Source: Bacilli bacterium (lineage in GTDB: Bacteria; Bacillota_I; Bacilli_A; RF39; UBA660). Taken from it: a stretch of 64,000 bases of DNA. The stretch covers positions 1 through 64,000 of the forward strand of contig JAFQES010000022.1 of the NCBI GenBank assembly GCA_017398945.1, read 5' to 3'. Numbering within the stretch: the stretch's first letter is position 1; each line of letters starts with the position of its first letter. Made by a program: the position numbers and the translations under genes. Positions 8,601 to 27,666 of the stretch are shown here, one piece after another. Below the pieces are notes generated by a model, which saw only the letters and a list, made by a program, of their open reading frames with translations, had not been told where the DNA came from and ran no database searches.

Positions 8601-9187
8601 TGATGAACTACATAATCTGATAAATAACCAGTAGAATCAGAAAATGATGTTGTTTGATTAACAACTCCAGTTTTTATTGTTGCATCAAATTGTGGTTGAT
8701 TATAATGAGCTGCTACTAATCTCTTAATTTCATTTTTTTCTTTATCTACATTTATATAATCTCCCCAACCAGACGCTTCTGTCCAATATTCAATAATCTG
8801 TCCACCTGTAGTTTCCCAGATAAGTGCTTGTGCAGCCATTCTATATCTTAGTGTATTATGTCCCGGATAGTCATAACCATAATATCCATATAATTGAATT
8901 TTCTGATTTACTTCATCTGAATAAGGTGAATTAATCCATCCAATTTGTCCATTATAATCATGAATTGTAATATCTACTCCCGGTTCTATACAATAAACTG
9001 TTTTACCATCCATAGTATAGGTATGATATTGAGCCGACATATATGGTTTTCCACCACCACGTCTTGTATAATAAACATTTTCAATTGGTCCTTCTACTAA
9101 TGTTGCTGCACTAACATCAGTACATCCCAAAAGCATTAAAAAAGCACTAACCATAAATATTAGTGCATATTTGTATTTCCCTTTCAA
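5594..9187 (-). CDS. Thioester-domain, multi-Cna-B (SpaA-like) surface adhesin
   Basis: A wall-anchored adhesin of about 1,197 residues. After a signal peptide (about 1-27) comes a TQXA thioester domain: Cys66 in VYCIEPG and Gln120 in MAAQALIW should form the internal thioester that bonds covalently to host or partner surfaces. About nine Cna-B/SpaA repeats with KxD/E isopeptide signatures follow. The C-terminus has VPNTS, a membrane helix and a basic tail, a variant sorting signal. I chose the TTG at 9187, six bases after AGGGGG; a TTG at 9214 has no ribosome site and lies in the upstream terminator. No sortase is in the window. Confidence 0.8.
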   Translation of the reverse strand: MKGKYKYALIFMVSAFLMLLGCTDVSAATLVEGPIENVYYTRRGGGKPYMSAQYHTYTMDGKTVYCIEPGVDITIHDYNGQIGWINSPYSDEVNQKIQLYGYYGYDYPGHNTLRYRMAAQALIWETTGGQIIEYWTEASGWGDYINVDKEKNEIKRLVAAHYNQPQFDATIKTGVVNQTTSFSDSTGYLSDYVVHQSDGATVTISGNQLLVTPSRVGENTIILKKKMYTDNPTTIFVGTDSKSQKMGYFGVDDPLYVAVKVNALGGRIKLTKVDSELDITKAQGQATLVGAKYNVLDSNNNVVTTLTIGNDMTAITDHLPFGTYTIKEISASTGYYLDSNTYTVTVNSSDTYDLTVEEQVIKGKIKVVKYDSETNTCKESGMASLVGAKYEIRDHNGNLVDTVTIGSDCSATSKELPYGNYSIKELSASTGYYLDSNTYYANIKDNTIISVTSKEDVIKGRIQINKVDSETNTCKAQGQATLVGAKFVIKDHNGNIVDTIAIGDDCSAISKYIPYGKYTIEELSSSKGYYINTEIFNQFISEKLDYSITVKEDVIKNYISILKQYDYVNGNTTFLNAEANITFEIFYPDGTKYGELTTDKNGYASLDIPYGVWKFHQVNSNTGFEKIYDFFVTVDENSEKEQYYNILNNKISAYLQVVKIDSETGKTIALPNTKFKILNTDTNQYVSQFVAGKVYDTFSTDESGMFTTYLKLEAGNYKLVEIECPKGYVISNEGLSFSIGENTEYNYTTYGAFVVVNFENEAIKGQVEIFKTGEKFVVENSSFKYETIALNGIKYELYAAEDIKSSDNNYIYYNKGDLVETLITDEFGYSISKKLPLGKYYLVEVQTKDNYILDPKEYHFELTEKDNKTKVVYNTYKPYNYLEKGDLIFTKTDLVSGDVISNVEVNIFTSNNELVFSGMTDDKGQVVVKNLFVGKYYIVEVNPADGYVLNEEKVYFEILENGEVVKANMTNKKITSTLKINKVDEEEKVLAGVKFGIYDLQDNLLLEKETDDNGYIEIELEYGKYYFKEISTLEGYVLSDEKIYFDVTEDGAVIEETIVNGIITGSFTLTKIDFSTGNVIPNALIEIFNESGELIFSGRTDENGLITIEDLKYGKYSYIEKEAPEGYILNDEVHYFEILEDGTIIKDTLTNEMMQIEVPNTSSNSYIFLIPIAMVVTGTILLFINNKRKKVKNEKNR

Positions 9188-9200
9188 ATTATTCCCCCTA

Positions 9201-9229
9201 ACAAAAAAACACAACTAAATTGCTGTGTT
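9201..9229 (-). terminator. Weak intrinsic terminator after the 9231-9965 gene
   Basis: A short A/T-rich stem (AACACA with TGTGTT, arms 9224-9229 and 9208-9213) is followed on the minus strand by a run of T. It sits between the membrane protein and the adhesin gene and may attenuate rather than fully stop transcription. Confidence 0.45.
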
Positions 9230-9230
9230 G

Positions 9231-9965
9231 TTAATTATTATATATCCAAGTTCCATCAGTAAAGAAAATCTGTAATCTATAACCAACTACTGTTCCTTTA
9301 TATGCAAAACTTTTGCATGATGTATTTCTTAAATTCCCTTGTATTGCATATTGTGGACCAATAATATCTGCTGCAGCTTGACATTCTGCTCTTGTTTCAA
9401 ATTCTATTGTAGCTTTCAAATTAATGTATTCTTCATCATTTTTAAAACTAAATACATTATCTTTGTTATCTTCATCAGGAATTTCATAAGAATTTGTATT
9501 ATTCTGTTCTTCTTTATCAACATTACTATTAGTAGCTGTATTTTCATCAACTTTTGGTTCTTCTTTTATTTGAGTATTAGTAGAAGAATTTGATGATGTT
9601 GATGAATCACTAGAAGAAGTTTGATTATTTTGTTCTTGTTTTGTTGTTATATTATTTTTAGAAGAACTATTATCTTTCTTTGTCGTGTCTGTTTTTACAT
9701 TATTATTGTTATTAGAATTATCTTCTTTTTGATTATCACTCTTTGAATTTTCTACCTGTTCTTCTATTTTTACTTCTTCAGTTGATATTACATTTTGGTC
9801 TTCATTATTTTCCTCAGATACTTCATTTTTTACCGTTTCTTTTTCAACAGTATCATTTAATTTATTTGTTTCTCTTGTATTAAAATAATAAATTGTAGCA
9901 CTACATATACCTAGTACCATTAAAAGACTAAAAATTACAAGAGGCAATTTAATTTTTGGTTTCAT
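9231..9965 (-). CDS. Membrane-anchored protein with long low-complexity stalk
   Basis: A 244-residue protein with an N-terminal signal-anchor (about residues 7-27). A stalk of about 130 residues is rich in Asn, Ser, Thr, Glu and Lys. A compact C-terminal domain of about 65 residues has two Cys (about 194 and 217) that could form a disulfide. Such stalks hold a small domain away from the membrane through the wall. The start is the ATG after GAGGAGGG. It is not recognised beyond this. Its place at the head of the adhesin/SipW run suggests a surface role. Confidence 0.6.
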   Translation of the reverse strand: MKPKIKLPLVIFSLLMVLGICSATIYYFNTRETNKLNDTVEKETVKNEVSEENNEDQNVISTEEVKIEEQVENSKSDNQKEDNSNNNNNVKTDTTKKDNSSSKNNITTKQEQNNQTSSSDSSTSSNSSTNTQIKEEPKVDENTATNSNVDKEEQNNTNSYEIPDEDNKDNVFSFKNDEEYINLKATIEFETRAECQAAADIIGPQYAIQGNLRNTSCKSFAYKGTVVGYRLQIFFTDGTWIYNN

Positions 9966-9997
9966 AAGAAATCCCTCCTCTTTAATTTGTTATATAG

Positions 9998-10026
9998 ATC
10001 ATAACATATTTTTGTTAAAAAGTCAG
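9998..10026 (-). promoter_or_regulatory. Putative promoter for the surface/transfer operon
   Basis: On the minus strand, CTGACT (10021-10026), a 17-base spacer and TATGAT (9998-10003) lie just upstream of the 9231-9965 gene. The -35 match is partial, so strength is uncertain. Confidence 0.4.
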
Positions 10027-10029
10027 CGC

Positions 10030-10284
10030 CTATTCAGTAGATTCTAACTTAATAGTAGGAACTTCTTGTATTGGAGTTGCATACATTCCTAATTGTAATT
10101 GCATTTCATTAATTTTATTATACAATACATTAATGTATGTAACTAAATGTTGGTATCTCTGAATTGCTATATCCAAATCAGCTAAGGTTCTAAAATATTC
10201 AGAATTTGATAATCCTAAATTTTCTGCACGTTCCTTCACCTGATCTTTCATAAAGCTAGATACCGAGACTTTGATTTGTTCCAT
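10030..10284 (-). CDS. Ribbon-helix-helix protein, possible relaxosome accessory or repressor
   Basis: An 84-residue protein. The first 35 residues fit a ribbon-helix-helix fold (IKVSVS strand, then two helices ending in SNSEYFRTLA). The remainder is a single helix and short tail. RHH proteins of this size on conjugative elements act as MobC-like relaxosome factors or as transcription repressors. The start is the ATG after AGGAGGTGA. No relaxase is visible near it, so the choice between the two roles is open. Confidence 0.6.
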   Translation of the reverse strand: MEQIKVSVSSFMKDQVKERAENLGLSNSEYFRTLADLDIAIQRYQHLVTYINVLYNKINEMQLQLGMYATPIQEVPTIKLESTE

Positions 10285-10357
10285 TTTTCACCTCCTATTT
10301 CTATAATTGAGTTTGATAACTCTATCCACTATTTTTGCTTTCAGTTATATGCTTAAT

Positions 10358-10807
10358 TTAATTAAAAACTTCTATATGATAATATTTAGCTACTTTTATA
10401 TAACAGCTTTTCTTTCTCTGATAAATACTACTCTTATCTAAAGAAAGTCTTTCAGCAATTTCTTCATCAGTATGTCTTGATAATATAGAATATTTGAAAA
10501 TTATCTTCTCATCTGAAGTCATCCTTAATCTTAAAGCTCTAAATGATTCATTCATTGCATCAATATATTCTTTATATTCAACAATCTTTAAAGCTCTTTG
10601 TGATGTTGGATCACTAATATTAGATGAAAAAATCCCCATATTATCATTAGACAATGACGCATTATAATATTCACTTAATTCTTCAACCCTAACAGAGTAT
10701 GCTCTATACTTTGAAAAGTATTGTAAAACTAAGTCTCTAGTTTCCGGATAATTGTATCCATCTAAAATCTCCTTGCCATATAATTTTGGTTCACTTATTT
10801 TTGGCAT
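10358..10807 (-). CDS. ArpU-like / sigma-region-4-like transcription regulator (copy 1)
   Basis: A 149-residue protein. The C-terminal 60 residues read as a sigma-70 region 4-like helix-turn-helix (SRHTDEEIAERLSLDKSS), as in ArpU-type late regulators of phages and ICEs. I use the ATG at 10807, eight bases after GAGGGAG; an upstream in-frame extension to 10864 lies in the leader terminator. It shares general size, the region-4 ending and a KKSCY-K motif with the protein at 11121-11600, so the two are probably paralogues. A promoter, leader and terminator precede it. Confidence 0.65.
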   Translation of the reverse strand: MPKISEPKLYGKEILDGYNYPETRDLVLQYFSKYRAYSVRVEELSEYYNASLSNDNMGIFSSNISDPTSQRALKIVEYKEYIDAMNESFRALRLRMTSDEKIIFKYSILSRHTDEEIAERLSLDKSSIYQRKKSCYIKVAKYYHIEVFN

Positions 10808-10831
10808 ATAACCATCTCCCTCTGAAAGCAT

Positions 10832-10859
10832 AAAAAAAGAACAAAATCTAATTTGTCCT
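10832..10859 (-). terminator. Intrinsic terminator in the leader of ArpU-like gene 1
   Basis: An eight-pair stem (arms 10852-10859 and 10838-10845, one G-U) is followed by seven T on the minus strand. It lies between the putative promoter at 10926-10954 and the ribosome site of the regulator, where it would stop transcription unless relieved. Confidence 0.7.
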
Positions 10860-10925
10860 TTCAAAAAAAATAATGAATTAAAAAAATGGAACAGTCATTT
10901 CTTTAAACTTATCCCATTTTACTAC

Positions 10926-10954
10926 ATTTTAGCATTAACATCTTGAAATGTCAG
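10926..10954 (-). promoter_or_regulatory. Putative promoter for ArpU-like gene 1
   Basis: Minus strand CTGACA (10949-10954), 17-base spacer, TAAAAT (10926-10931). The transcript would have about 100 bases of leader before the intrinsic terminator. The rest of the 10.86-11.10 kb gap is A/T-rich with nothing else recognised. Confidence 0.5.
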
Positions 10955-11103
10955 TAGCGATTTTTATTGTGTTTTTTGTTTAAAATTTAGTTGAGTTGTT
11001 TTTGCACTTTTTCCTTATTTTATAAGGGATAGCGAAGAAAATAAACTTAACTAAAAACATTTTATTTTTATTTTTTCTTTTCAAATTTTTTAAAAAAAAT
11101 TGC

Positions 11104-11142
11104 AAAAAAAAAGATGACAATTAGTCAAAAAGACTAATTGTC
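11104..11142 (-). terminator. Strong intrinsic terminator after ArpU-like gene 2
   Basis: Perfect 11-bp stem (GACAATTAGTC with its complement, arms 11132-11142 and 11116-11126), then a run of nine T on the minus strand. It overlaps the last codons of the upstream gene. Confidence 0.85.
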
Positions 11143-11600
11143 GCAAATACATTCTTTGTAAAACCATCTACTAATCCAAATCTAAGTGCTAATTTTACAT
11201 AACAACTTTTCTTTATTGGATAATAAGTTTTATCTGTTTTACAGATCCTATCTCTAACTTGTTTGTCTTGTTCTCTTGCTAATACGCTGTAGGTGTATAT
11301 CTTTAATTCATCTGCTGTTAGTGTAGATAATAAATATTCAAGTTTTCTATCAAACTCATTTAAATATTTTACTACCTTTTCCCTTTTCTTAACAATTTCA
11401 TAAGTTGAATCTATTTTTTTACGATATTTTGAACGTGCTGTTGCAGGTTCATTATTAGATTTACGTTGATATATTGAATCTAAGTATTCTTGTGCTATTG
11501 CTTTTTTATAATTATAATCATCAAATAAATTATAAACAGCTTTAGCGATTACTTTTAAATCATACTCATCCAAATATCTTTTTCTTAATTCTACCTTCAT
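11121..11600 (-). CDS. ArpU-like / sigma-region-4-like transcription regulator (copy 2)
   Basis: A 159-residue basic protein, probably a paralogue of the one at 10358-10807. Both have a long helical N-terminus, a middle helix pair and a C-terminal segment ending in KKSCYVKLA-type residues. The recognition helix here (VRDRICKTDKTYYPIK) is less canonical, so DNA binding is inferred. The start is the ATG at 11600 after AAGGGGGTGA. A LysR-type operator, a consensus -35 promoter, a leader of about 80 bases and a strong terminator precede it, so expression looks conditional. Confidence 0.6.
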   Translation of the reverse strand: MKVELRKRYLDEYDLKVIAKAVYNLFDDYNYKKAIAQEYLDSIYQRKSNNEPATARSKYRKKIDSTYEIVKKREKVVKYLNEFDRKLEYLLSTLTADELKIYTYSVLAREQDKQVRDRICKTDKTYYPIKKSCYVKLALRFGLVDGFTKNVFATISLFD

Positions 11601-11622
11601 TAGCAATCACCCCCTTATTGAC

Positions 11623-11660
11623 AAAAAAGAGAAATTACTTGAAGTTCTAGTAATCTCTCT
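11623..11660 (-). terminator. Intrinsic terminator in the leader of ArpU-like gene 2
   Basis: A 12-pair stem with one G-U (arms 11649-11660 and 11628-11639) followed by six T. It ends about seven bases before the AAGGGGGTGA ribosome site. Upstream in the same leader is a second inverted repeat, TTATTTAC with GTAAATAA, which could compete with it. Confidence 0.8.
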
Positions 11661-11743
11661 TTGAAATCTCTAAATCAATTATGTTGCTAAATCCACTAAA
11701 ACCCCAATAGTTATTTACAAAGTCATGTAAATAATTGTTATCT

Positions 11744-11771
11744 ATATTACAACTTTTTTTAAAATTGTCAA
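11744..11771 (-). promoter_or_regulatory. Putative LysR-controlled promoter for ArpU-like gene 2
   Basis: TTGACA (11766-11771), 16-base spacer and TAATAT (11744-11749) on the minus strand. The TGCA-rich operator ends seven bases upstream of the -35 box, the usual place for an activator. Confidence 0.6.
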
Positions 11772-11777
11772 GACTTT

Positions 11778-11812
11778 AATTGCATTTTTGCATTAGAAAA
11801 TGCAATTTTGCA
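11778..11812 (-). promoter_or_regulatory. TGCA-type operator, site A
   Basis: A perfect 11-bp inverted repeat, AATTGCATTTT (11778-11788) with AAAATGCAATT (11797-11807), followed by a further TTTTGCA. The 32 bases from 11781 match site B (14690-14721) at 26 positions. It is probably bound by the LysR-type regulator encoded at 14768. Confidence 0.6.
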
Positions 11813-11823
11813 ACCAAAAGGGT

Positions 11824-11860
11824 AAAAAAATAGGACTTTTTTTCATAATTTGTCCTATTT
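11824..11860 (-). terminator. Intrinsic terminator of the radical SAM / NUDIX operon
   Basis: AAATAGGAC and its complement (arms 11852-11860 and 11828-11836), then seven T on the minus strand, about 70 bases past the end of the NUDIX gene. Confidence 0.8.
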
Positions 11861-11931
11861 ATAACAAGTATAACATAAAAATCTAATATTGTGATTCCCC
11901 AAAAATCTTATACTAAATCTGATATTTGATC

Positions 11932-13506
11932 TTATATTTTTTCTTCCCTAACAAATAATCTATTTATGAAAGATAAAGGTTTTGAAGTGTTATCATATAT
12001 GCTTGTATAACATTTATCAATAATATCATCATTACTATTATTTTCTATCATATTACATAATTCTTTAAAATATTTTTCTGTTCCTCTTTCTGTTTTAAAT
12101 TCTTTTACTAACATTTGTGGAATAGATTTGTTTTTTAAAACAATAAGTAAATATACTAAATGATTTGAAGTATCAATATCAGTATTAACTTTCATAACTG
12201 AATATTTGATATTATCTTTTTCATAATCTTTGTTATTACATACTTGACCGTTATCAAAATAGAATTGTTCTGGATTTGCCTTTTTTTGATTTTCAGTTAA
12301 CTTATATAACTTTTTAATCTTTTTATTCATTTCCTTAACTCCCCTTTTATTTAATAATTTTGTTAATAAAGATAAATACAGTCCATCTTTAACAAATGCT
12401 TTGTCAAAATCTTTTATACTTATATTTACTTTAACAACTTTATTACCAATTATTTTTTTACCTTTTATTTGTTCTACTTTGTTGTTCAGTAATTTTATTA
12501 CATCTTTTATATTTAATTCTACAAATGATGAAACTTCATTTATATCATAATTTATAAAATCTTTTAATTTAACCTCTTTATTTAAAGAGTAAAAATATTG
12601 AAATTCTTTTACAATATAATCTTCTTTAACTTTTATGCTTATCTTTCTTTTTTTTATAAAATCTAATTCTTTAAAATTTACTTTTAATCCAGTTTCTTCC
12701 TTAATTTCTCGTACACCATCTTCTAGTGTTTCACCAGCCATTAAATGTCCACCAGCTGTAATTTCAAGTAATTCTTTTTTATGTATATTATTATGTTTTG
12801 GATTTTTTAATTGAAAATATACTTTATTATTTTTAGAGTTATAAATCAAACAACCAAATACTCTATGCCAACATCCTAACTCATGAGCTTTTGTTTTTTC
12901 ACAATAACCTAATAAATTTTCTTTTGAATCATATATATCTACGTATTCAGCTGTTTTTCTTTTTCCTTCTCTAAATCGTTTTAAGAATCCATTTGCATCT
13001 TTACACATATCACTAAATTCTTTAATCATGTCTAATTTATATTCTTTGGATATATTATAAGTAATTATAAATAACTTAAATAATCTATCCTTAACAAATT
13101 CATGACTTGTATCAAATCCTACTCTATCTTTTCTAAAACGACAATCATATATTTCCATTATTGCTTCTGTTAATTGTCCTAATAAAATACTAATACCATT
13201 AATATTATCATAAGAATAATCTTTTAATTCTTTGATTTCATACATATCAATATTCATTATTTTAGCTAAATTAATTAATTGTAATAATACATCTGATAAC
13301 TCATCACCTAAGTTATCTATTTTTCTTTGATTTTCATTTACATTATCATTTGAGAATAATACATTATATACATGTCCTAATTGAACATATAATTCATTTA
13401 AATATATTTGTGGATCCCATTTTTTCTTTTTTGTAATATCAAAATCACTTACTAATTTTAAAGCATTTTTATAATGAACATCTAAAAATTTAATTATATC
13501 TTTCAT
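11932..13506 (-). CDS. MazG-like / NUDIX fusion hydrolase with unknown C-terminal domain
   Basis: A 524-residue fusion. Residues about 1-185 are helical with a LGDELSDVLLQL stretch like the metal-binding helix of all-alpha (MazG/dUTPase-type) NTP pyrophosphatases. Residues about 205-330 are a NUDIX domain of the YfcD/IPP-isomerase-like subgroup (GCWHRVFGCLIY entry). Its full NUDIX box runs from GGHLMAGETLEDG into REIKEETGL. The last 130 residues are unrecognised. An AAGGGGAG ribosome site and ATG lie inside the gene at 12330 (residue 393), so the tail may also be made separately. Its start abuts the stop of the radical SAM gene. A nucleotide-diphosphate substrate is likely but unknown. Confidence 0.7.
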   Translation of the reverse strand: MKDIIKFLDVHYKNALKLVSDFDITKKKKWDPQIYLNELYVQLGHVYNVLFSNDNVNENQRKIDNLGDELSDVLLQLINLAKIMNIDMYEIKELKDYSYDNINGISILLGQLTEAIMEIYDCRFRKDRVGFDTSHEFVKDRLFKLFIITYNISKEYKLDMIKEFSDMCKDANGFLKRFREGKRKTAEYVDIYDSKENLLGYCEKTKAHELGCWHRVFGCLIYNSKNNKVYFQLKNPKHNNIHKKELLEITAGGHLMAGETLEDGVREIKEETGLKVNFKELDFIKKRKISIKVKEDYIVKEFQYFYSLNKEVKLKDFINYDINEVSSFVELNIKDVIKLLNNKVEQIKGKKIIGNKVVKVNISIKDFDKAFVKDGLYLSLLTKLLNKRGVKEMNKKIKKLYKLTENQKKANPEQFYFDNGQVCNNKDYEKDNIKYSVMKVNTDIDTSNHLVYLLIVLKNKSIPQMLVKEFKTERGTEKYFKELCNMIENNSNDDIIDKCYTSIYDNTSKPLSFINRLFVREEKI

Positions 13507-14630
13507 TATCTTTCACCAACCTTTAATATTAGAGGTTTTGCACCATTTAAAGTTGAATTATAAGTATCAGCAACTATATTGTTTGTAGAAACATAAACTT
13601 TTATTCCTAATACATAAGATAAATAAGAAGCATCACTAATTTTTAAATTAATATTTTTTAATTCTAAACTTCCATATTCATCAAAATTAAATTCTACATT
13701 ATCTGTTATGAATCCTAACTTTTCTAATAAACTTAAACATTTATTTTTAACTAACATTTGGTTTAATTCTTGATGAGCTTTTTTACAACGATTTCTTTGT
13801 TCTTCACTACAATGATTATAGTTCTTACATTCAAATGAACCATAATATTGTGTTGATGGTCTTTTTAATTTTGTATTTAATCCACAAGTATTTGTTTGAA
13901 ATATTTGTTGTTCATGTGAATAATTATCATTAAAATAATTCCATGCTGTTTCCGGCCATACACAATTTGCTTTTAAACTTGCCTCTTTATTCTTTTTAAC
14001 TTCATCCCAACATTCTATTTTATCTATAAATGTTTCTATTAATGCCAACCCAGTTGTTACTGAAATATCTGTGTATTTATTAACATTATCTAATATTTCT
14101 TTTATTCTTTCTGGATTTGAATTTTGTGGTAAAAATGGTCTAAAATAATGAATTACATCTATACCATTTTCAGATAACTTTTTAAAATTATTAATTAATG
14201 TATCTTCTGATATTCTAGGTTCTATATCTTTTCCTAAACCAGAATAACTAATATAAAATACTACATTAATTCCTTTGTCTTTTATTTCTTTTACTCTTTT
14301 AATAACGTGATCTGGTATATTGCATTTAGTTATAATTACCAAATCATTTTTAATATTATGATTTTCTATTTCATCAAATAATTCCATTAAATAATTTGTA
14401 TTCTTTGGATTTACAAATACGTCTGTGTTTGGTAACAAACATACTGGTATAGATTCATCATAATATTTATATTTTAATAATTCTTCTACTGCTTGTTTTG
14501 GAGTAGCTATATCTCTTGGACGACAAAGATTATCTCCAGTTGCTTGTAATAAACAATACTTGCAACCATTTGGACAACCTACAACTGAATTAATAGCTAA
14601 CCAGCTGGAGTGCATTTCTACTACAGCCAT
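13506..14630 (-). CDS. Radical SAM protein (spore-photoproduct-lyase-like cluster motif)
   Basis: A 374-residue radical SAM enzyme. The [4Fe-4S]/SAM motif is C-x3-C-x2-C at Cys19, Cys23 and Cys26 (GCPNGCKYCLL), set close to the N-terminus as in SPL-type and related enzymes. The SAM barrel runs to about residue 240. A Cys-rich patch (CGLN, then FECKNYNHC and RC at about 235-275) could hold a second cluster or zinc. The start is the ATG at 14630 after GAGGTGA. It is co-transcribed with the MazG/NUDIX protein and sits next to LysR-type operator site B. The substrate is unknown. Confidence 0.75.
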   Translation of the reverse strand: MAVVEMHSSWLAINSVVGCPNGCKYCLLQATGDNLCRPRDIATPKQAVEELLKYKYYDESIPVCLLPNTDVFVNPKNTNYLMELFDEIENHNIKNDLVIITKCNIPDHVIKRVKEIKDKGINVVFYISYSGLGKDIEPRISEDTLINNFKKLSENGIDVIHYFRPFLPQNSNPERIKEILDNVNKYTDISVTTGLALIETFIDKIECWDEVKKNKEASLKANCVWPETAWNYFNDNYSHEQQIFQTNTCGLNTKLKRPSTQYYGSFECKNYNHCSEEQRNRCKKAHQELNQMLVKNKCLSLLEKLGFITDNVEFNFDEYGSLELKNINLKISDASYLSYVLGIKVYVSTNNIVADTYNSTLNGAKPLILKVGER

Positions 14631-14689
14631 ATAAATCACCTCGTCTTGAACTGCCTCTATAATAGCATAGTATAATTAAAATGAAGCTA

Positions 14690-14721
14690 TGCAATTTTAC
14701 AAGTGAAAATGCAATTATGCA
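14690..14721 (-). promoter_or_regulatory. TGCA-type operator, site B, upstream of the radical SAM gene
   Basis: Thirty-two bases starting TGCAATTTTAC and ending AATTATGCA match site A at 26 positions. The site overlaps a TTGCAT -35-like box (14689-14694). Candidate -10 boxes lie near 14660-14675, but spacing is not ideal, in keeping with an activator-dependent promoter. Confidence 0.6.
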
Positions 14722-14722
14722 T

Positions 14723-14756
14723 AAAAAATACCTTAAATCCATTTTGGATCTAAGGT
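14723..14756 (-). terminator. Intrinsic terminator of the LysR-type gene
   Basis: ACCTTAGATCC pairs with GGATTTAAGGT (arms 14746-14756 and 14730-14740, one G-U), followed by a T run on the minus strand. It separates the regulator from operator site B. Confidence 0.8.
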
Positions 14757-14767
14757 ACTTATTTATA

Positions 14768-15640
14768 TTATTTAAATTCTGATAAAAATTGTTTTGCAGA
14801 TGGTGATAAGTTTTCTTCAACATAAGAAATAGTTATAGGTTTTATTATATTAATATCCAAACTTTCTAAATTAGTATTATTTACTAATCTTTTTGGTAAT
14901 AATCCAAATCCTAATCCTGATTCAACATAATCTTTTGCAATATTATAATTAGATATTTCTAAAGATATATTAACTTTAATATTATTTTCTTCTAATAATT
15001 CATCAAACATACTTCTTTCTTTTTTAGATGTTGAAGGAACTATCATTGGTTGTTCTTTCAATTGTTCAACACTCTCTAATTTAAAATCAAAATATGTAGG
15101 ATTATAAGCTATACAATAATCTTCATTGAAAATATTAACTAATTTAATTTCATCACTTTTTCTTAAATTTTCTATTGGTTCATCAATAACAAAATCCAAA
15201 TAATATTGTGAAAGTTTTTCAAATAAATCTTTTGTAGGTAAATTTAGAGTTTTAAACACTACATTTGGATATTTCTTTTTAAATTCTTTAATTTTATCAT
15301 TTAATAAATTTAATTCATCATCAGTAGAAACACCAATGGTAATTTTACCAGTATTTAAAGTTTTATTTTGTAAATATGTTTTTTCAGTAATAAATAATAA
15401 GTTATATGCTTTTTCATAACCTTCAAACAATTCTTTACCATTTTCTGTTAGTTCAATATAATTCTTAGAGTTTCTATTAATAAGTTTGGTTCCCATAATA
15501 CTTTCTAAACTTTTAATATTTCTTGAAACATTAGTTGGATCAATATCTAATTTACTAGCAGCTTCTTTCAAATCTTTAGATTGTCCAACAATTACAAATG
15601 TTCTTATCAAATTTAAGTTCATTGTTTTTGTATTCAACAT
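14768..15640 (-). CDS. LysR-family transcriptional regulator
   Basis: A 290-residue LysR-type regulator. The winged helix-turn-helix is at about residues 8-66 (LIRTFVIVGQ, KEAASKLDIDPTNVSRNIKSLE), then a linker helix and a two-lobed periplasmic-binding-like effector domain (about 95-285). The start is the ATG after AAAGGGGTGA. It has its own promoter with a weaker operator just upstream. Its presumed sites recur upstream of the radical SAM operon and of ArpU-like gene 2, suggesting one small regulon. The effector is unknown. Confidence 0.85.
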   Translation of the reverse strand: MLNTKTMNLNLIRTFVIVGQSKDLKEAASKLDIDPTNVSRNIKSLESIMGTKLINRNSKNYIELTENGKELFEGYEKAYNLLFITEKTYLQNKTLNTGKITIGVSTDDELNLLNDKIKEFKKKYPNVVFKTLNLPTKDLFEKLSQYYLDFVIDEPIENLRKSDEIKLVNIFNEDYCIAYNPTYFDFKLESVEQLKEQPMIVPSTSKKERSMFDELLEENNIKVNISLEISNYNIAKDYVESGLGFGLLPKRLVNNTNLESLDINIIKPITISYVEENLSPSAKQFLSEFK

Positions 15641-15669
15641 ACACTCATCACCCCTTTGAGTTGCTTTAT

Positions 15670-15741
15670 ATACTATAACAATTTATTAAAAAAGTCAATC
15701 AAAAAACTGCATTTTTTACATTTTTTAAGCATATTTTGGCA
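15670..15741 (-). promoter_or_regulatory. LysR gene promoter and operator-like site C
   Basis: TTGACT (15693-15698), 17-base spacer and TAGTAT (15670-15675) on the minus strand form a good sigma-A promoter. From 15708 to 15741 lies a TGCATTTTTTACA...GCATATTTTGGCA stretch resembling sites A and B, about 10 bases upstream of the -35 box. It fits autoregulation, but the match is weaker. Confidence 0.5.
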
Positions 15742-15763
15742 AAAAACGCACTTGATTCTACTA

Positions 15764-16012
15764 TTATTTTCTAAAAAGCCTTATTTTTAATTCTTTTTTA
15801 CATTCCAAAATCTTCTTCTCAATATTATCTATTTCTTTATTACCCAATGCTAAAGTTTCTAAATTTTGTTCTTCCATTTCATTCCATTCATTAATAATTC
15901 TATAATAATCAATTCCTGTATCATTCTTTCTCATAAAAAATATAATTATAGGTACAATACCTAATATACACAAAAATAATAATAAAATTTCAACTATTAC
16001 TTTTTCTTCCAT
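15764..16012 (-). CDS. Small single-pass membrane protein
   Basis: An 82-residue protein with one membrane helix (about 5-28) and a charged helical tail, possibly coiled. It overlaps the next upstream gene by 16 bases and has an AGAGG ribosome site. Not recognised. The pair of small membrane proteins is probably one transcript. Confidence 0.5.
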   Translation of the reverse strand: MEEKVIVEILLLFLCILGIVPIIIFFMRKNDTGIDYYRIINEWNEMEEQNLETLALGNKEIDNIEKKILECKKELKIRLFRK

Positions 16013-16257
16013 ACAAATAACCTCTTAACAAAAACTAAAAATTGATAATATTTTAATTCTATTTTTTTAAAAAAAATTACTCTCTTCTGTTTTTCTACCA
16101 TTGTACTATATTTATCCCAATGAGTAACATACGTCAATGTGGACTTATAATATTTCATTTTATAACGTTCATCTATAATAACATAAATACAATATGTTAT
16201 AATCAACACTACCAATAAAGCACATAACACAATATTAAACATCATGTCCTTATCCAT
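15997..16257 (-). CDS. Small single-pass membrane protein with basic tail
   Basis: An 86-residue protein with a membrane helix at about 8-28, a Tyr/Lys-rich cytosolic region and a hydrophobic, basic C-terminus. I use the ATG at 16257, six bases after GGAGGTG; a further ATG five codons upstream overlaps the ribosome site. Not recognised. Its overlap with the 15764-16012 gene suggests they act together. Confidence 0.5.
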   Translation of the reverse strand: MDKDMMFNIVLCALLVVLIITYCIYVIIDERYKMKYYKSTLTYVTHWDKYSTMVEKQKRVIFFKKIELKYYQFLVFVKRLFVWKKK

Positions 16258-16364
16258 CGTATGCACCTCCATAAATTCAAATCCGTCTATTCTTATAATT
16301 ATTATAACATATTTTGTATCATATTCATCCCTAAAATAAAAAATTGCAATTTTTTTTGCAACTT

Positions 16365-16847
16365 TTATATTTTTTTTATCATTGTTTCCATTCTAGAATG
16401 ATACCCTTTTTTATTATAAAAATTTATTCCTATTTCATTATAGGCAAATACATCAACAATTATATATTCACATCCAACACTCTTAAAATATTCTTCCATC
16501 TTATTTATAAGTAATTGTCCTATGCCTTTACTTCTTGTTTTGTTACTAACTATTAATTCAGTTATTTCGCCTCTTTTAGGACATTTATAATCTAAATAAT
16601 CATAATCATCATATGGAGGAATACATCCCATAATAAGCCCGATAGCTTTGTTGTTTTCAATGGCCAAATAGCATTTGCCATTATAATTATTCACTTCTTC
16701 TAGATCTAATAAAGCCATCTTCTCTTTGTATTCAGAATGAATTTGATCTAAGTTATCTTCATCTATCGAAATAATATATTCTTCTAGTTCTACTAATAAA
16801 TCTTTTACATCTTCCAAATATTTTTCATTATATTCTATAATTTGCAT
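16365..16847 (-). CDS. GNAT-family N-acetyltransferase
   Basis: A 160-residue GNAT. The acetyl-CoA loop is in the RSKGIGQLLINKMEEY stretch (motif A, about residues 108-123), with a preceding ITELIVS strand and a C-terminal NFYNKKGYHSR motif B. It should acetylate an amine on a small molecule or protein. It is the last member of the co-directional 28.4-16.4 kb array, 35 bases after the HAD gene. The acceptor is unknown. A resistance or tailoring role is possible from context. Confidence 0.75.
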   Translation of the reverse strand: MQIIEYNEKYLEDVKDLLVELEEYIISIDEDNLDQIHSEYKEKMALLDLEEVNNYNGKCYLAIENNKAIGLIMGCIPPYDDYDYLDYKCPKRGEITELIVSNKTRSKGIGQLLINKMEEYFKSVGCEYIIVDVFAYNEIGINFYNKKGYHSRMETMIKKI

Positions 16848-16882
16848 ATATGCTTCTCCAATCTAAATTTAAATCTAGTTTA

Positions 16883-17665
16883 TTAAATATCTAACTCATT
16901 TAAAAAGATTGCTACTCCATCTTCATCATTACTATTAATTTTATACATTGCTTTTTCTAATGCTCTTTTTGTTGAATTACTAACTGCTGCGCTTATTTTG
17001 GCTATTTCAAACATTGAAATATCATTATTATCGTTACCAATTGCAATTATATTCTCTTTTGATATATTCAAATATTCTGCCAATTTTAGAACAGCAATTC
17101 CTTTGGATGCTTCATTACTTACAACGCTAAACCAATTTTCTTCACTATTCTCCTTAGATGAATCAAGAATATTCATTTTATATTCGTTTTGAACTATTTC
17201 TTTAAATGTATTTATCTTATTTTTTTCTTTACCTATTACCATAATTTGTTTCACTTTATTATTAATAACTTCATCAAAATTATTATCAGTTAATAAAATT
17301 TGATTTTTATTTCTTGTAAATTGAGTTACATATTCGGTATTTTCTAACACAAACATTATTCTTATATTGTGTAATTTTGCATAATCATATAGTAATTTAC
17401 AATTCTTTTTATTTAAATATTTTGCCCAGATAATTTTTTGTTTCTGAACATCATATATTTCCGATCCGTTTGATGAAATCATAAAACTATTTGCACCTAC
17501 TTCATTACTTATTTTTTGCGTATGATATCTTGGACGCGCTGTGCAAATAACTACAATATTTTCTTTTTCAATTTGCTTTTTTAATACTATTTTAGTAAAG
17601 TCAGAAATAGTACCATCTGTTTTCCTAAGTGTTCCATCACTATCAATAGCAATTATATATCTCAT
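16883..17665 (-). CDS. HAD-superfamily (Cof-type) phosphatase
   Basis: A 260-residue HAD hydrolase of the Cof/IIB class. Motif I is DSDGT (Asp8 and Asp10), motif II is the Thr in VICTAR, the cap follows, then the SKGIAVLKLAEYL lysine and GNDNNDISMF motif IV. It probably dephosphorylates a sugar phosphate, nucleotide or similar small molecule. The start is the ATG at 17665 after GGAGGT. It lies behind the NUDIX gene, with a hairpin in the 47-base gap. Confidence 0.75.
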   Translation of the reverse strand: MRYIIAIDSDGTLRKTDGTISDFTKIVLKKQIEKENIVVICTARPRYHTQKISNEVGANSFMISSNGSEIYDVQKQKIIWAKYLNKKNCKLLYDYAKLHNIRIMFVLENTEYVTQFTRNKNQILLTDNNFDEVINNKVKQIMVIGKEKNKINTFKEIVQNEYKMNILDSSKENSEENWFSVVSNEASKGIAVLKLAEYLNISKENIIAIGNDNNDISMFEIAKISAAVSNSTKRALEKAMYKINSNDEDGVAIFLNELDI

Positions 17666-17688
17666 CACTTTTACCTCCATATATTAAA

Positions 17689-17713
17689 ATATCAGTTCAT
17701 AGAGAACTGATAT
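17689..17713 (-). terminator. Hairpin between NUDIX and HAD genes
   Basis: Perfect 10-bp inverted repeat (ATATCAGTTC with GAACTGATAT). The minus-strand T tract after it is short (TTTTAAT), so it may be a partial terminator or an RNA-stability element. Confidence 0.4.
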
Positions 17714-18240
17714 TAATTTGTATATTCATTTATTGTTGTTTTATATACCTCAAATAATTCAATCATTTCTCTTGCTATTCCTTTTTTATCACCATATTCC
17801 TCTGCATTTGCTCTTAATACATCTTCAACTTCTGATAATGGTATATATCTTAATTCAAAATTACCGTCTTTTTCATTTTCAGTATATTCAGTATTTTCTA
17901 AATTAGGTGCTTCATCTGTTTTTACTTCATAATAATAGATTTCTATTTTCCTATTTTTACCTTCTGCGGGCCAATCTTTATAATATCCAATTGCACAAGC
18001 AAAAGGTTCAATATTGGAAATATTTAATTCTATCCCAGTTTCTTCTAATACTTCTCTATTAACCGCTTGAATAAGCGTTTCGTTATCTTCAACATGTCCT
18101 CCAGGAAATTGATAATTATTATGTGAGTATCCCAATAAAACATCATTATTAGAATTTACTAATAATACCTTTACTCTTTTTACAACCTCTGTCATATCCG
18201 AATCTGTCAAATTATATTTGTTAGTAATTATTTGTTTCAT
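17713..18240 (-). CDS. NUDIX hydrolase
   Basis: A 175-residue NUDIX enzyme with a complete box: GGHVEDNETLIQAV followed by REVLEETGI (about residues 70-92). It would hydrolyse a nucleoside diphosphate-X compound. The start is the ATG at 18240 after GGGAGTGA, so its start lies within the end of the dNMP-kinase-like gene (20-base overlap), indicating coupled translation. With the kinase and the HAD phosphatase it makes a three-gene nucleotide- or phosphate-handling set at the 3' end of the array. Confidence 0.75.
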   Translation of the reverse strand: MKQIITNKYNLTDSDMTEVVKRVKVLLVNSNNDVLLGYSHNNYQFPGGHVEDNETLIQAVNREVLEETGIELNISNIEPFACAIGYYKDWPAEGKNRKIEIYYYEVKTDEAPNLENTEYTENEKDGNFELRYIPLSEVEDVLRANAEEYGDKKGIAREMIELFEVYKTTINEYTN

Positions 18241-18970
18241 TATTATCACTCCCTTTTCTTAAAACTTTCGTTTTACTAATTGAAACATTACTATTTATCT
18301 TATTACTGATTAATTCAGTAATTTCTTGAAAAGAGTATTGACTGTTTAAAAATAAATTTTCTATAGAAAATAAATCTTTTAAAATATCAAAATTTTCTCT
18401 TTTTGCCATAATCAATTCTAATAAGGTTAAAACTAAGGATGACGTTTCCTCTAATGATAAGTTTTCATTATTAATTAATAAATACGGCATATTATATTTT
18501 TTTAATGCTTCAAAATATTTATCATATCCATCAACATATAATCTTTTCTTTTTAAGATCGTCATCTGAAATATTTCTATTTTTAATTCTTTTAATTCGTT
18601 CTTCAACAGAAGCATACAATACAATTGTTAAATCTGGAACACCATAATTCATAACGAACATATCAAACAATGCCGAATTTTCTTTATTATATGAAAAATA
18701 ATATGTTGATAAAAATCCACGATCCATTAATATATCATCTTTTTTAGCATCCTCTAATACAGATAAATATCCCATTAAATAATACATAGCTTGAATATTA
18801 CTTGAATAGCAACTATAAATTTTTTCTGTTATTTTTTTTGATTGTTCATCATCTAAATATAACAATTTCTTTATTGGTTTCTCTGCTATTGGCATATTTA
18901 AAAACGATGACAGATGATTTGTAATTGTACTTTTTCCTACGCCATCTAATCCTTCAACACTTATTAACAC
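18221..18970 (-). CDS. Thymidylate-kinase-like P-loop kinase
   Basis: A 249-residue P-loop kinase. Walker A is GLDGVGKST (about residues 7-15) and the DRGFLST motif (about 83-89) matches the DR-x-x-x-S of thymidylate and deoxynucleoside kinases. A C-terminal extension of about 60 residues is not seen in standard Tmk. It starts at GTG after GGGGGG. A -10-like TATAAT upstream near 19,015 may give it a separate promoter. It could phosphorylate a (d)NMP or a nucleoside-like intermediate. Confidence 0.65.
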   Translation of the reverse strand: MLISVEGLDGVGKSTITNHLSSFLNMPIAEKPIKKLLYLDDEQSKKITEKIYSCYSSNIQAMYYLMGYLSVLEDAKKDDILMDRGFLSTYYFSYNKENSALFDMFVMNYGVPDLTIVLYASVEERIKRIKNRNISDDDLKKKRLYVDGYDKYFEALKKYNMPYLLINNENLSLEETSSLVLTLLELIMAKRENFDILKDLFSIENLFLNSQYSFQEITELISNKINSNVSISKTKVLRKGSDNNETNNY

Positions 18971-19035
18971 ATTAATCCCCCCTATAGAAAATTATAGTAA
19001 TTATCTATATTATATTTATTATAACATAAATTTCT

Positions 19036-19947
19036 TTATTTAATAAGTTTTTTGCTTTTATCGAATAAAATATTATGATATGGTTTATGTTCTGGATAAA
19101 CGTTTAACCATTTTAATGAATTTATACAATCATAAATTAATAATCTATTTTCAAAATTATCTATTTGACAGATGTCTGGATAATTTTGAATTAAATAATA
19201 CATAATTTTTTCATAGTCTTTTGGATTTACAGATGATTGTAATCCTTTTTTTATTAAACTATTTGGATTTCTAACCATTCTATTTATAGAGTCAAAATCT
19301 TTATCTAAAGGTGCAATATCATAACATTCAAAATCTATTAACTTTAAACCTTCGTCAGAATATATAATATTATTAAAATGTATATCTCCATGAGTGAATC
19401 CAAAACTAGCATTTTCAAAATAATATGTCAAAACATTTCTTAACTCACTCAAATATAATATTTTATCAATAGATAATAAATTTGATAATTTAAGTCTATT
19501 TAAATACTCATCATATTTTGAGAGTATATTCTCAATAGCTTCACTTTTTTGTTCTGTTGGTTTATGTATTTTTTTAAGTATTTGAACTAATTCATTTAAA
19601 CAATATTCTTTTTGAATTTCATTTAAAATTCCCCATACATTAAATAAATTATTACCATTTATTTTTTCTTCAATAGTATAGATATATGGAATTGTTTCTT
19701 TTGAAATATCATATGTAATTAATTTTGGATTAAAATAGTTTGGATTATCTATATAATATTGAATTTCATTTATTATTCCAGGTTCTTTTTCGTAATTAAC
19801 ACAAATCTTAATTACGAACATATCATTTACATTATATACAATTCTATTAAACCCTATATTTTGTCGTTTACAACTCCAAACTTTACCAAGACCGTTCTTA
19901 TTACATATTTCTATAACATAATTTATCAATGTTTCTTCATTATTCAT
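19036..19947 (-). CDS. APH/choline-kinase-like phosphotransferase (copy 2)
   Basis: A 303-residue kinase of the aminoglycoside/choline kinase fold. The catalytic loop is FTHGDIHFNN (about 188-197) and the metal-binding motif is LIDFECYD (about 207-214). It would phosphorylate a hydroxyl of a small molecule. It lies 31 bases after the radical SAM gene. A second, divergent APH-like kinase lies directly upstream of that gene. Antibiotic resistance is only one option; a biosynthetic or protective phosphorylation fits the context as well. Confidence 0.7.
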   Translation of the reverse strand: MNNEETLINYVIEICNKNGLGKVWSCKRQNIGFNRIVYNVNDMFVIKICVNYEKEPGIINEIQYYIDNPNYFNPKLITYDISKETIPYIYTIEEKINGNNLFNVWGILNEIQKEYCLNELVQILKKIHKPTEQKSEAIENILSKYDEYLNRLKLSNLLSIDKILYLSELRNVLTYYFENASFGFTHGDIHFNNIIYSDEGLKLIDFECYDIAPLDKDFDSINRMVRNPNSLIKKGLQSSVNPKDYEKIMYYLIQNYPDICQIDNFENRLLIYDCINSLKWLNVYPEHKPYHNILFDKSKKLIK

Positions 19948-19978
19948 TATTTAGTCCTCCATACTTATATAATTTTTA

Positions 19979-20908
19979 TTATTTAATTGTTTTTACTAAT
20001 TTTTTTATATAAGGATCATTAAGTTCTTGAATATTATCAATACCTAGTTCTCCCATTTTATCGCCTAAACACCATGAGCGATCATTATAAAAGTCTTTAT
20101 ACAAATAAATTTCTCTATCTATAATTTCTCCCACTTCATATCCAGGTTTACATATGCAAGTACATCCATATACTTTGTTATCAGGAGTTATACAAACTTT
20201 CTTTACTCCTGCACTACATTGAAATCTATTTGGTTCATACATAGTATCTACACCAAATGTACCACTTCTTCTGACTTCTAATTCATTGATATTATACTTT
20301 CCTCTAGCTTGCCTAATTTGTGTAAAAAAGGCATTATAATCAGCTAAATTTAAACCGATATTTGTTAAATTTTTAGCACGTCCTTGAATAAATATTTTAT
20401 TAAATTCAATTCCTGATGCTCCCAATTCATATGCTGTATCACAAATATTTAAAGTATCTTTAGCATTTTTATTTGTTATAGTAGTCATTAAAACAACTCT
20501 TAAATCTTTTTCTCTTAATTTTCTTATAACTTCGTTTAACATTTCATTTGTGATTCCATTTAAACTTTCTTGAATTCCAAAATGATAAGACATAAATATA
20601 GTTTTGATTCCTGATGATTTAAACAAATCTATTATTTCTGGTTCTTTAAATATCCTTAATCCATTAGTCATAATCCAATCTTGTCCTACTATTTTATAAG
20701 AACTTAAATAACCTAAATCTACTAATGGTTCAGCACCGTCTATTCTTACTATTTTATATTTTTCAGAGTAAAACTTTGCTAATTCTTCTAATTCTTCAGG
20801 CGTTCTATTACCTGTATAACCAATATAACAATGTTTACAAGCAACATTACATTTTGAACAAGCCATTAAAATAACTCTATTTCCTTCATATTTTTTTAAT
20901 TCACGCAT
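19979..20908 (-). CDS. Radical SAM/SPASM-like enzyme
   Basis: A 309-residue radical SAM enzyme. The cluster motif is C-x3-C-x2-C at Cys20, Cys24 and Cys27 (SKCNVACKHCYIG). GAEP corresponds to the GGEP SAM-binding motif. The C-terminal region has four or five Cys (FQCSAG, VCITPDNKVYGCTCICKPG), like a SPASM or twitch auxiliary-cluster domain. Such enzymes modify peptides, sugars or amino acids. It starts immediately at the end of the kinase gene 20909-21793. No precursor peptide gene is seen nearby. Confidence 0.8.
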   Translation of the reverse strand: MRELKKYEGNRVILMACSKCNVACKHCYIGYTGNRTPEELEELAKFYSEKYKIVRIDGAEPLVDLGYLSSYKIVGQDWIMTNGLRIFKEPEIIDLFKSSGIKTIFMSYHFGIQESLNGITNEMLNEVIRKLREKDLRVVLMTTITNKNAKDTLNICDTAYELGASGIEFNKIFIQGRAKNLTNIGLNLADYNAFFTQIRQARGKYNINELEVRRSGTFGVDTMYEPNRFQCSAGVKKVCITPDNKVYGCTCICKPGYEVGEIIDREIYLYKDFYNDRSWCLGDKMGELGIDNIQELNDPYIKKLVKTIK

Positions 20909-21793
20909 TTATACCTTCCTCCTCACATTCACATCTTTATTAAACCATTTAGGTATATCACTTTGAAAATAATTAGCAAAATTTAAAAATTCTTTTAATT
21001 TTTGTTCACCATCAAACAACGATTTTCCATCACTCCTTAATGTATACAAAATATAATCCAATATATATAAAGAACCAAATAAATTATATACATTCCAAAA
21101 TTCCATAGGTATATTATTTTGAAAATAATTTTCAATGACACTTGAATAGAAATTAGGATATTTCATATTACAAGCATTACTAGTTAAATCTTCCCAAGGA
21201 TGTGAAATTGTACAAACATCCATATCGATAAACACTAATCTATTACCATCAAATATAATATTTCCAGGATGAAAATCTCCATGAATTATACAATTACCTT
21301 TTAATTCTTTAAGTATATTTTTATGTTTCATCACAAAATCATGCAATAATATAATACTTTCTTTATCTATTTCCAAATCTAAAACTTTTGTTAATTTTTT
21401 TGTAAATGATTGGATAAATCTATCATAAATAATTATATTATTAGGTATATTAATATTGTGCATTTTTAATAATTCTTTTGCAATATCTGCACCATATTGA
21501 ATTTCTTTTTCTATATCAGTTAATTTATTTTCTAAACTTATACCATCTATCCATTCTAATAAAGCATATCCTTTTTCTTCAGTCAATAATCCTTTAGAAT
21601 ATATTTTAGGGACATATATTCCATTTTTTAATAATATTTCCATATTATCCAAAGCTTTATATCTACTTTTCATAAATCTTGCATCAAAAATTCTTAATAA
21701 ATAATATTTATTATCTTTATATAATTTGTATTTTTCAACAGATGAAGCACCATAATTAATTTTTTCTACTACTATATATTCTTCTAAATTCAT
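20909..21793 (-). CDS. APH/choline-kinase-like phosphotransferase (copy 1)
   Basis: A 294-residue kinase of the APH/choline kinase fold. Catalytic loop IIHGDFHPGN (about 177-186), metal motif FIDMDVC (about 196-202). The gene begins right at the ABC ATPase stop (TAG-ATG) and ends right at the radical SAM start, so it is tightly coupled to both. The substrate is unknown. It differs clearly from the kinase at 19036, so the two probably act on different molecules or steps. Confidence 0.7.
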   Translation of the reverse strand: MNLEEYIVVEKINYGASSVEKYKLYKDNKYYLLRIFDARFMKSRYKALDNMEILLKNGIYVPKIYSKGLLTEEKGYALLEWIDGISLENKLTDIEKEIQYGADIAKELLKMHNINIPNNIIIYDRFIQSFTKKLTKVLDLEIDKESIILLHDFVMKHKNILKELKGNCIIHGDFHPGNIIFDGNRLVFIDMDVCTISHPWEDLTSNACNMKYPNFYSSVIENYFQNNIPMEFWNVYNLFGSLYILDYILYTLRSDGKSLFDGEQKLKEFLNFANYFQSDIPKWFNKDVNVRRKV

Positions 21794-22468
21794 CTATTCT
21801 ATTTCTTTCTTATTTTTATTATCTTGTATAATTGCTTTGCCATTTTGTATATGAATTATCTTATCAGATATTTTATTAACAAAGTCTTCTTCATGAGAAA
21901 CAATCAACAAAGTCATATCATCTTTAACCATACTAATGATTAAATTTATTACTTCTTTTTTCATTTCTTTATCTAATGCACTAGTTGGTTCATCTAATAA
22001 AATTAATTTTGGTTTCATTAATAAAGTTCGAGCTATGGCAACCCTTTGCTTTTGTCCACCAGATAATTCATCAGGGTAACTATTTATTTTATCTTCTAAT
22101 CCAATCTTTTTCAAAATTTTTATTGACTCTTTTTCGGCATATATATCTGAATATTTTTTTATTTTTGTTAAACCAAGAGTTAAATTTTGCAAAACTGTTA
22201 AATGTTCAAACAAATTATATTCTTGAAAGACTATCCCTATTTTTTGTCTTAAATCTGATATATTCATTTCAGTAATATCTATGCTATCAAAATAAATATT
22301 ACCATCATCAATAGTTTCTAATCTATTGATACATTTTAACAATGTACTTTTACCACAACCTGATTTCCCAATTATAGAAACAACTTCACCCTTATTTATT
22401 TCTAAATTAATATTTTTTAAAACGTTATTATTTTTATATTTTTTTGAAACATTAACTATTTTCAACAT
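21794..22468 (-). CDS. Amino-acid-type ABC transporter ATPase (GlnQ-like)
   Basis: A 224-residue ABC ATPase with Walker A GKSGCGKST (about 34-42), Q-loop VFQEYNLF, signature LSGGQKQR (about 132-139), Walker B LILLDEP and the switch His in VSHEE. It is of the GlnQ/HisP polar amino-acid class. Its start overlaps the permease stop by one base (TAATG). It energises uptake by the permease and binding protein encoded just upstream. The lower conservation of its C-terminus is unremarkable. Confidence 0.9.
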   Translation of the reverse strand: MLKIVNVSKKYKNNNVLKNINLEINKGEVVSIIGKSGCGKSTLLKCINRLETIDDGNIYFDSIDITEMNISDLRQKIGIVFQEYNLFEHLTVLQNLTLGLTKIKKYSDIYAEKESIKILKKIGLEDKINSYPDELSGGQKQRVAIARTLLMKPKLILLDEPTSALDKEMKKEVINLIISMVKDDMTLLIVSHEEDFVNKISDKIIHIQNGKAIIQDNKNKKEIE

Positions 22469-23241: not shown

Positions 23242-23254
23242 ATTTTACCCCTTA

Positions 23255-26140: not shown

Positions 26141-26143
26141 AAT

Positions 26144-27664: not shown

Positions 27665-27666
27665 AA

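Follow-up and report, generated by a model that had tools for sequence, protein, structure and literature searches.

A recurring radical SAM and MazG-like/NUDIX gene pair that shares a candidate twin operator with an ArpU-like regulator on mobile elements of gut Bacilli

Prokaryotic viperins are radical SAM (rSAM) enzymes with nucleotide substrates, often encoded near kinases, and viperins make ddhCTP. The radical SAM mobile pair (NCBIfam TIGR04470) resembles the locus described here, with weak sequence similarity, in that its rSAM gene is carried on mobile elements, and spore photoproduct lyase and PA0069-type proteins share with our enzyme a CX3CX2C core, an overall core fold and a motif resemblance. 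MazG and the NUDIX proteins of the YfcD/IPP-isomerase type have the domain folds of its partner. A further comparable system is the thmA-C cluster, which comprises an rSAM enzyme, a kinase and a self-resistance NTPase and makes 4'-thiothymidine (PMC12691670). Like the present locus, it is a small cluster that combines an rSAM gene with nucleotide-handling partners, including a nucleoside triphosphatase (PMC12691670).

The locus lies in a 64,000-nucleotide stretch of contig JAFQES010000022.1 (the whole of which we call the window) from an uncultured gut bacterium of the Bacilli with a 1.21-Mb genome. The minus-strand gene order is LysR, rSAM and a 524-residue partner (11932-13506), with the following genes, domains and signals:

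14768..15640, minus strand: LysR-type regulator of 290 residues, which opens the conserved trio (above the Pfam cut-offs for HTH_1 and LysR_substrate)
14722..14758, minus strand: terminator-like hairpin and T-run closing the LysR transcript (read from sequence)
14690..14721, minus strand: candidate twin-palindrome operator TGCATAATTGCA-N8-TGTAAAATTGCA, about 90 bp before the rSAM start (15 of 16 box letters)
13506..14630, minus strand: radical SAM enzyme with CX3CX2C and conserved C-terminal cysteines (PF04055; AlphaFold pLDDT 93)
12958..13506, minus strand: MazG-like all-alpha domain of the partner (weak MazG and MazG-like Pfam matches; hhalign to MazG, 94%)
12382..12948, minus strand: NUDIX domain with the fold of YfcD, IPP isomerase and DR0079 (PF00293; Foldseek)
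11992..12279, minus strand: C-terminal tail domain (stand-alone gene before ArpU in other elements)
11824..11860, minus strand: terminator-like hairpin and T-run after the pair (sequence and fold; equivalents in relatives)
11781..11812, minus strand: candidate twin-palindrome operator TGCAAAATTGCA-N8-TGCAAAAATGCA, upstream of the ArpU-like gene (16 of 16 box letters)
11744..11771, minus strand: promoter-like TTGACA-16-TAATAT, just downstream of the operator (consensus match only)
11624..11661, minus strand: strong hairpin and T-run in the ArpU leader (fold z -2.9)
11121..11600, minus strand: ArpU-like gene of the phage late-regulator type, kept beside the trio (conserved neighbourhood)

A first-pass annotation of the window had placed the rSAM end coordinate at 14630, in agreement with the start that fits the relatives, an ATG at that position preceded by GAGGTGAT. 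It had also described two genes with a common stop and start region and one terminator. Both genes are present, on the minus strand, and so are both features: the rSAM stop and the partner start overlap by a single base (TAATG), and a hairpin and T-run lie downstream at 11860-11824, where a simple terminator scan omits them because the loop is long. The hairpin and T-run behind LysR precede the pair's own promoter region and have counterparts at the equivalent place in three relatives (L001, L004 and L007); the LysR gene itself holds the equivalent position in the LysR-bearing relatives. Since such hairpins close both the LysR transcript and the pair, the rSAM gene and its partner probably form their own two-gene operon.

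The rSAM protein belongs to the radical SAM superfamily, with a CX3CX2C motif and a PF04055 score of 36.7 bits against a cut-off of 29.5, and its AlphaFold model is confident (pLDDT 93). Structure comparison indicated that its core resembles many rSAM folds, including that of spore photoproduct lyase (TM 0.44), none of them closely, and its sequence resembles PA0069-type proteins. Its NCBIfam matches at E<=1e-3 included no spore photoproduct lyase family, its score for TIGR04470 (radical SAM mobile pair protein B) was 20.4 bits against a cut-off of 410, and an HMM search of PDB sequences returned designed TIM barrels only. PADLOC matched none of the three genes (LysR, rSAM and partner), and assigned the rSAM protein to no family and thus to no viperin model. 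Three C-terminal cysteines (247, 272 and 280) are invariant over 18 relatives and a fourth (266) occurs in the majority or is displaced by a few columns, which makes a second metal site at these residues possible.

The AlphaFold model of the partner contains three domains (residues about 1-183, 187-375 and 410-505). The first of these, originally described as an all-alpha pyrophosphatase-like front, is weakly suggested by repeated matches to be MazG-like. Among 15 members, 10 matched MazG weakly and eight matched MazG-like in Pfam; profile comparison with MazG gave a probability of 94%, and the best PDB match was a nucleotide pyrophosphohydrolase (E 0.0012), but the window protein by itself scored 20.1 bits against Pfam MazG, under the cut-off of 22. 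E69xxD72 is invariant in this domain, and in the profile alignment QxxH occupies the place of EXXE; lacking the canonical EXXE, it is of uncertain hydrolytic activity. The NUDIX domain scored above its cut-off (PF00293, 31.6 bits versus 21.1), and its box departs from the canonical GX5EX7REUXEEXGU: REUXEE is kept, with six residues before RE in the window protein instead of the seven that are found in a relative (L036).

The first-pass annotation had called the tail unknown. On comparison of gene arrangements it does not belong to the enzyme's design and is a mobile-element gene fused onto the enzyme: the equivalent of residues about 410-505 forms a separate gene of 104-110 codons just before ArpU in three rSAM-less elements (L082:5285-5599, L083:6266-6598 and L084:5987-6310), and a separate gene following the MazG-like gene in L032 and L037. 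Two further tails (L081 and L085) begin at contig edges and are excluded from the stand-alone count.

Searching by rSAM alone, across genome contigs, viral contigs and sampled whole genomes, we found the MazG-like partner as the neighbouring gene in 14 of 14 strong, intact, close rSAM loci (the window counted; several of them, including the two viral contigs, nearly duplicate a single locus type). With the partner as query, 385 genomes yielded 12 strong matches to the MazG-like domain, 11 of which adjoin or are fused to an rSAM; two loci (L078 and L079) encode MazG and rSAM in a single protein. These counts and fusions bear out the earlier view of the pair as a real functional unit. NUDIX is fused, separate or missing among relatives, and in L038 it is a separate protein and the MazG-like domain sits on a glycosyltransferase. 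Its lack beside L032, L035 and L037 indicates that the core comprises rSAM and the MazG-like protein, with NUDIX a common but optional addition.

The first-pass annotation had staked its proposal on the pair being neither rare nor unlinked in other genomes. The pair is linked in every intact locus, as above, but uncommon: any rSAM match at all was present in 13 of 287 other genomes of the order (14 of 288 with the window's own), about half of the 13 being full, strong ones, and the matches in the order include merely distant or decayed ones (L039 and L042). Those two loci, from related genomes, carry decayed rSAM fragments with stops. A broad search of the phylum recovered, beyond the window itself, nothing but short, incomplete alignments to other rSAM-type proteins, which suggests that the close clade is restricted to this family of gut Bacilli (the relatives' records are titled uncultured Bacilli or Tenericutes); the phage record collection gave no match. 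The genes are maintained, since dN is far below dS, itself near saturation, for both rSAM (0.15-0.19 versus 0.9-1.4) and the MazG-like domain (0.13-0.26 versus 0.7-1.3). Distances of rSAM, MazG-like, LysR and ArpU proteins correlate (Mantel p 0.0005-0.02, with shared element ancestry still included).

The candidate operator consists of two 12-bp boxes (TGCAN4TGCA) with centres 20 bp apart. At one mismatch or fewer, the whole 1.21-Mb genome contains two sites only, 14690-14721 and 11781-11812, and among relatives the twin boxes precede most rSAM starts by about 90 bp and are also found upstream of ArpU. The summed best operator score was 139 upstream of rSAM (93.9 +/- 2.9 in shuffles) and 129 upstream of ArpU (90.7 +/- 2.5), a statistic that is descriptive because the motif was picked after viewing the sequences. 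The better tests, both likewise made after the motif was defined, are the genome-wide count and a comparison with trio-less ArpU genes, which had lower scores (p = 8e-5). The operator recurs in most relatives, on conjugative elements and on islands encoding tail particles; two loci (L003 and L004) have three strong sites, before LysR, rSAM and ArpU, and L035 gave weak scores, as did the region ahead of LysR in several loci, the window among them. The pair is thus apparently co-regulated with the element through a shared operator, and its coupling to the ArpU-like regulator speaks for a part in element control no less than for a role as cargo. LysR would be the natural candidate to bind the operator, judging from co-occurrence, and another element regulator could do so instead.

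The hairpin at 11624-11661 is a possible attenuator of the late operon, and the ArpU leaders of L004 and L037 also fold into hairpins (z about -2.6 and -2.5). An alignment of ArpU leaders displayed little sequence conservation, and we therefore do not claim a new RNA family; Rfam had no match at 9000-16500. A second ArpU-like paralogue (10358-10864) adjoins the first and matches a PHROG transcriptional activator.

That the pair lies downstream of a LysR gene on a mobile element, as first annotated, agrees both with the LysR Pfam domains and with synteny between the window and conjugative elements. In L003 and L004 the block precedes conjugation genes, homologues of the genes on the low-coordinate side of the window trio, and a VirD4-type coupling gene is present on contig G768:C2, apparently that of L003. 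In L001 and L007 it is followed by tail genes without intervening head genes, and on the L001 contig Rhs-type proteins come next; the block therefore accompanies the late operons of two distinct machines. Behind the headless tail genes beside the trio, L001 and L188 encode an Rhs-type protein and a number of short Rhs-like ends in repeated copies. Two loci (L002:4761-6747 and L007:7239-9225) carry after ArpU a pair resembling RloA/RloB (an AAA ATPase and its partner, by sequence reading alone). Upstream of LysR, the window at 16365-28428 encodes two APH-like kinases, an rSAM/SPASM-like protein, two ATP-grasp ligases, an aminotransferase, a methyltransferase, an amino-acid ABC transporter and NUDIX, HAD and kinase proteins, and looks like biosynthetic cargo of the element.

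Further afield, rSAM relatives at about 32% full-length identity are found on Streptomyces plasmids beside MurA-like and aldolase genes and, in some, exonuclease and P-loop ATPase genes. In a more distant branch (Alphaproteobacteria, Streptomyces, Nocardia and Nostoc), most loci examined combine rSAM with AAA_28 and a 3'-5' exonuclease; some of those in Streptomyces add thymidylate synthase and nucleoside-diphosphate kinase (NDK), and one adds a MazG-like protein together with a multi-NUDIX protein. These neighbours are the main ground for a nucleotide substrate of the rSAM enzyme; the nucleotide-chemistry reading of the first-pass annotation accordingly remains likely, on the strength of the thymidylate synthase, NDK, exonuclease, MazG and NUDIX genes beside distant relatives. 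Other relatives sit in sugar or glycan clusters without LysR or ArpU. Three Streptomyces plasmids (L148, L143 and L144) carry thymidylate synthase, NDK, rSAM, exonuclease, AAA_28 and aldo-keto reductase genes, L148 additionally encoding a MazG-like and a four-domain NUDIX protein, and at L147:1302-7272 the rSAM, exonuclease and ATPase set lies beside CBASS-type cyclase, patatin and ThiF genes. As a route for the Streptomyces branch, octosyl-acid biosynthesis (MurA plus rSAM) stays a lead, because the MurA-like gene there scores as an ordinary MurA.

The reading that we tentatively favour, while holding it a little short of an even chance, is that of a LysR-controlled nucleotide-chemistry module in the control region of the element, with a metabolite setting the late operon. 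The rSAM enzyme would make or remodel a nucleotide- or nucleotide-sugar-derived compound, and the MazG-like and NUDIX domains would act on its substrate or product in phosphorylated form, processing or removing it. LysR would sense a metabolite of this route and act through the same twin operator on the enzyme pair and on the ArpU-like late regulator, so that its metabolite would set the transfer (or tail-particle) operon. The metabolite switch in its specific form, in which LysR times transfer or the tail particle by reading a nucleotide-derived signal that the module produces or removes, is a more doubtful proposition. Gene linkage and fusion, purifying selection and a shared operator unique in the genome can be read from the sequences, and the linkage and the operator are far more secure than the mechanism, where we infer that LysR binds and activates, that the substrate is of nucleotide type and that the enzymes act on the ligand of LysR.

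The first-pass annotation had also offered phage defence or damage repair, for which we found no direct support, with no PADLOC match for the trio and no curated spore photoproduct lyase or viperin model. A phage defence role of the pair is possible. Its chemical form, in which the rSAM enzyme makes a nucleotide analogue that poisons phage or rivals and MazG and NUDIX protect the host by destroying it, follows a logic published for thmA-C (PMC12691670) and would suit the distant relatives paired with exonuclease and P-loop ATPase (some with thymidylate synthase and NDK), the one adjoining CBASS genes and the RloA/RloB-like pair after ArpU in L002 and L007 (by sequence reading). We consider it unlikely, given that neither a kinase nor an exonuclease adjoins the window pair, that PADLOC matched none of the three genes and that a defence cargo does not need conserved wiring to ArpU.

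Still less probable is a tailoring role, in which the enzymes would modify an activated sugar destined for one of the element's surface glycans or adhesins. Glycosyltransferase and pyruvyltransferase-like genes in L038, a nucleotidyltransferase-like gene with L078/L079 and aldolase, MurA-like and glycosyltransferase genes in Streptomyces loci would fit such chemistry, but no glycosyltransferase adjoins the window pair or its closest relatives, and the thymidylate synthase and NDK contexts do not fit. Repair of lesions by a spore photoproduct lyase-like rSAM enzyme, with MazG and NUDIX clearing damaged nucleotides from the pool, draws on the core fold and the PA0069-type sequence resemblance noted above; we regard it as quite improbable, as the similarity to spore photoproduct lyase is hardly above that to unrelated rSAM enzymes, no curated match was found and the distribution is narrow and element-bound. 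Hitch-hiking cargo, kept together since the elements spread together, accords with an uncommon gene (13 of 287 other genomes) whose close relatives are mostly on mobile elements of one bacterial family, but is very unlikely in view of the fusions and re-partitioned arrangements in other contexts, the purifying selection and the unique shared operator.

Peptide signals are known as a control of conjugative elements. If the metabolite-dependent control that we favour is correct, the movement of a conjugative element would instead be timed by small-molecule radical chemistry. Even on the linkage alone, rSAM, MazG and NUDIX make up a recurring module with a predicted regulon of two operons, and the finding ties plasmid-borne rSAM genes of Streptomyces and Alphaproteobacteria to nucleotide metabolism. 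The first annotator knew of no described system of this make-up; our literature search likewise found no description of such an rSAM-MazG-NUDIX/LysR/ArpU switch.

The locus differs from the systems with which we began. The thmA-C cluster has a nucleoside kinase, and no link to LysR or ArpU has been reported for it (PMC12691670). The partner in TIGR04470 systems is a second rSAM, in contrast to the MazG-like/NUDIX protein found here, and prokaryotic viperins are set apart by the lack of a PADLOC viperin match for our enzyme. Compared with spore photoproduct lyase and PA0069-type proteins, the rSAM protein falls far under the curated cut-offs and has its own conserved C-terminal cysteines and gene context. 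The MazG-like and NUDIX domains, unlike their known counterparts, are fused together with an element-specific tail, and combine a non-canonical EXXE with a NUDIX box that is one residue short.
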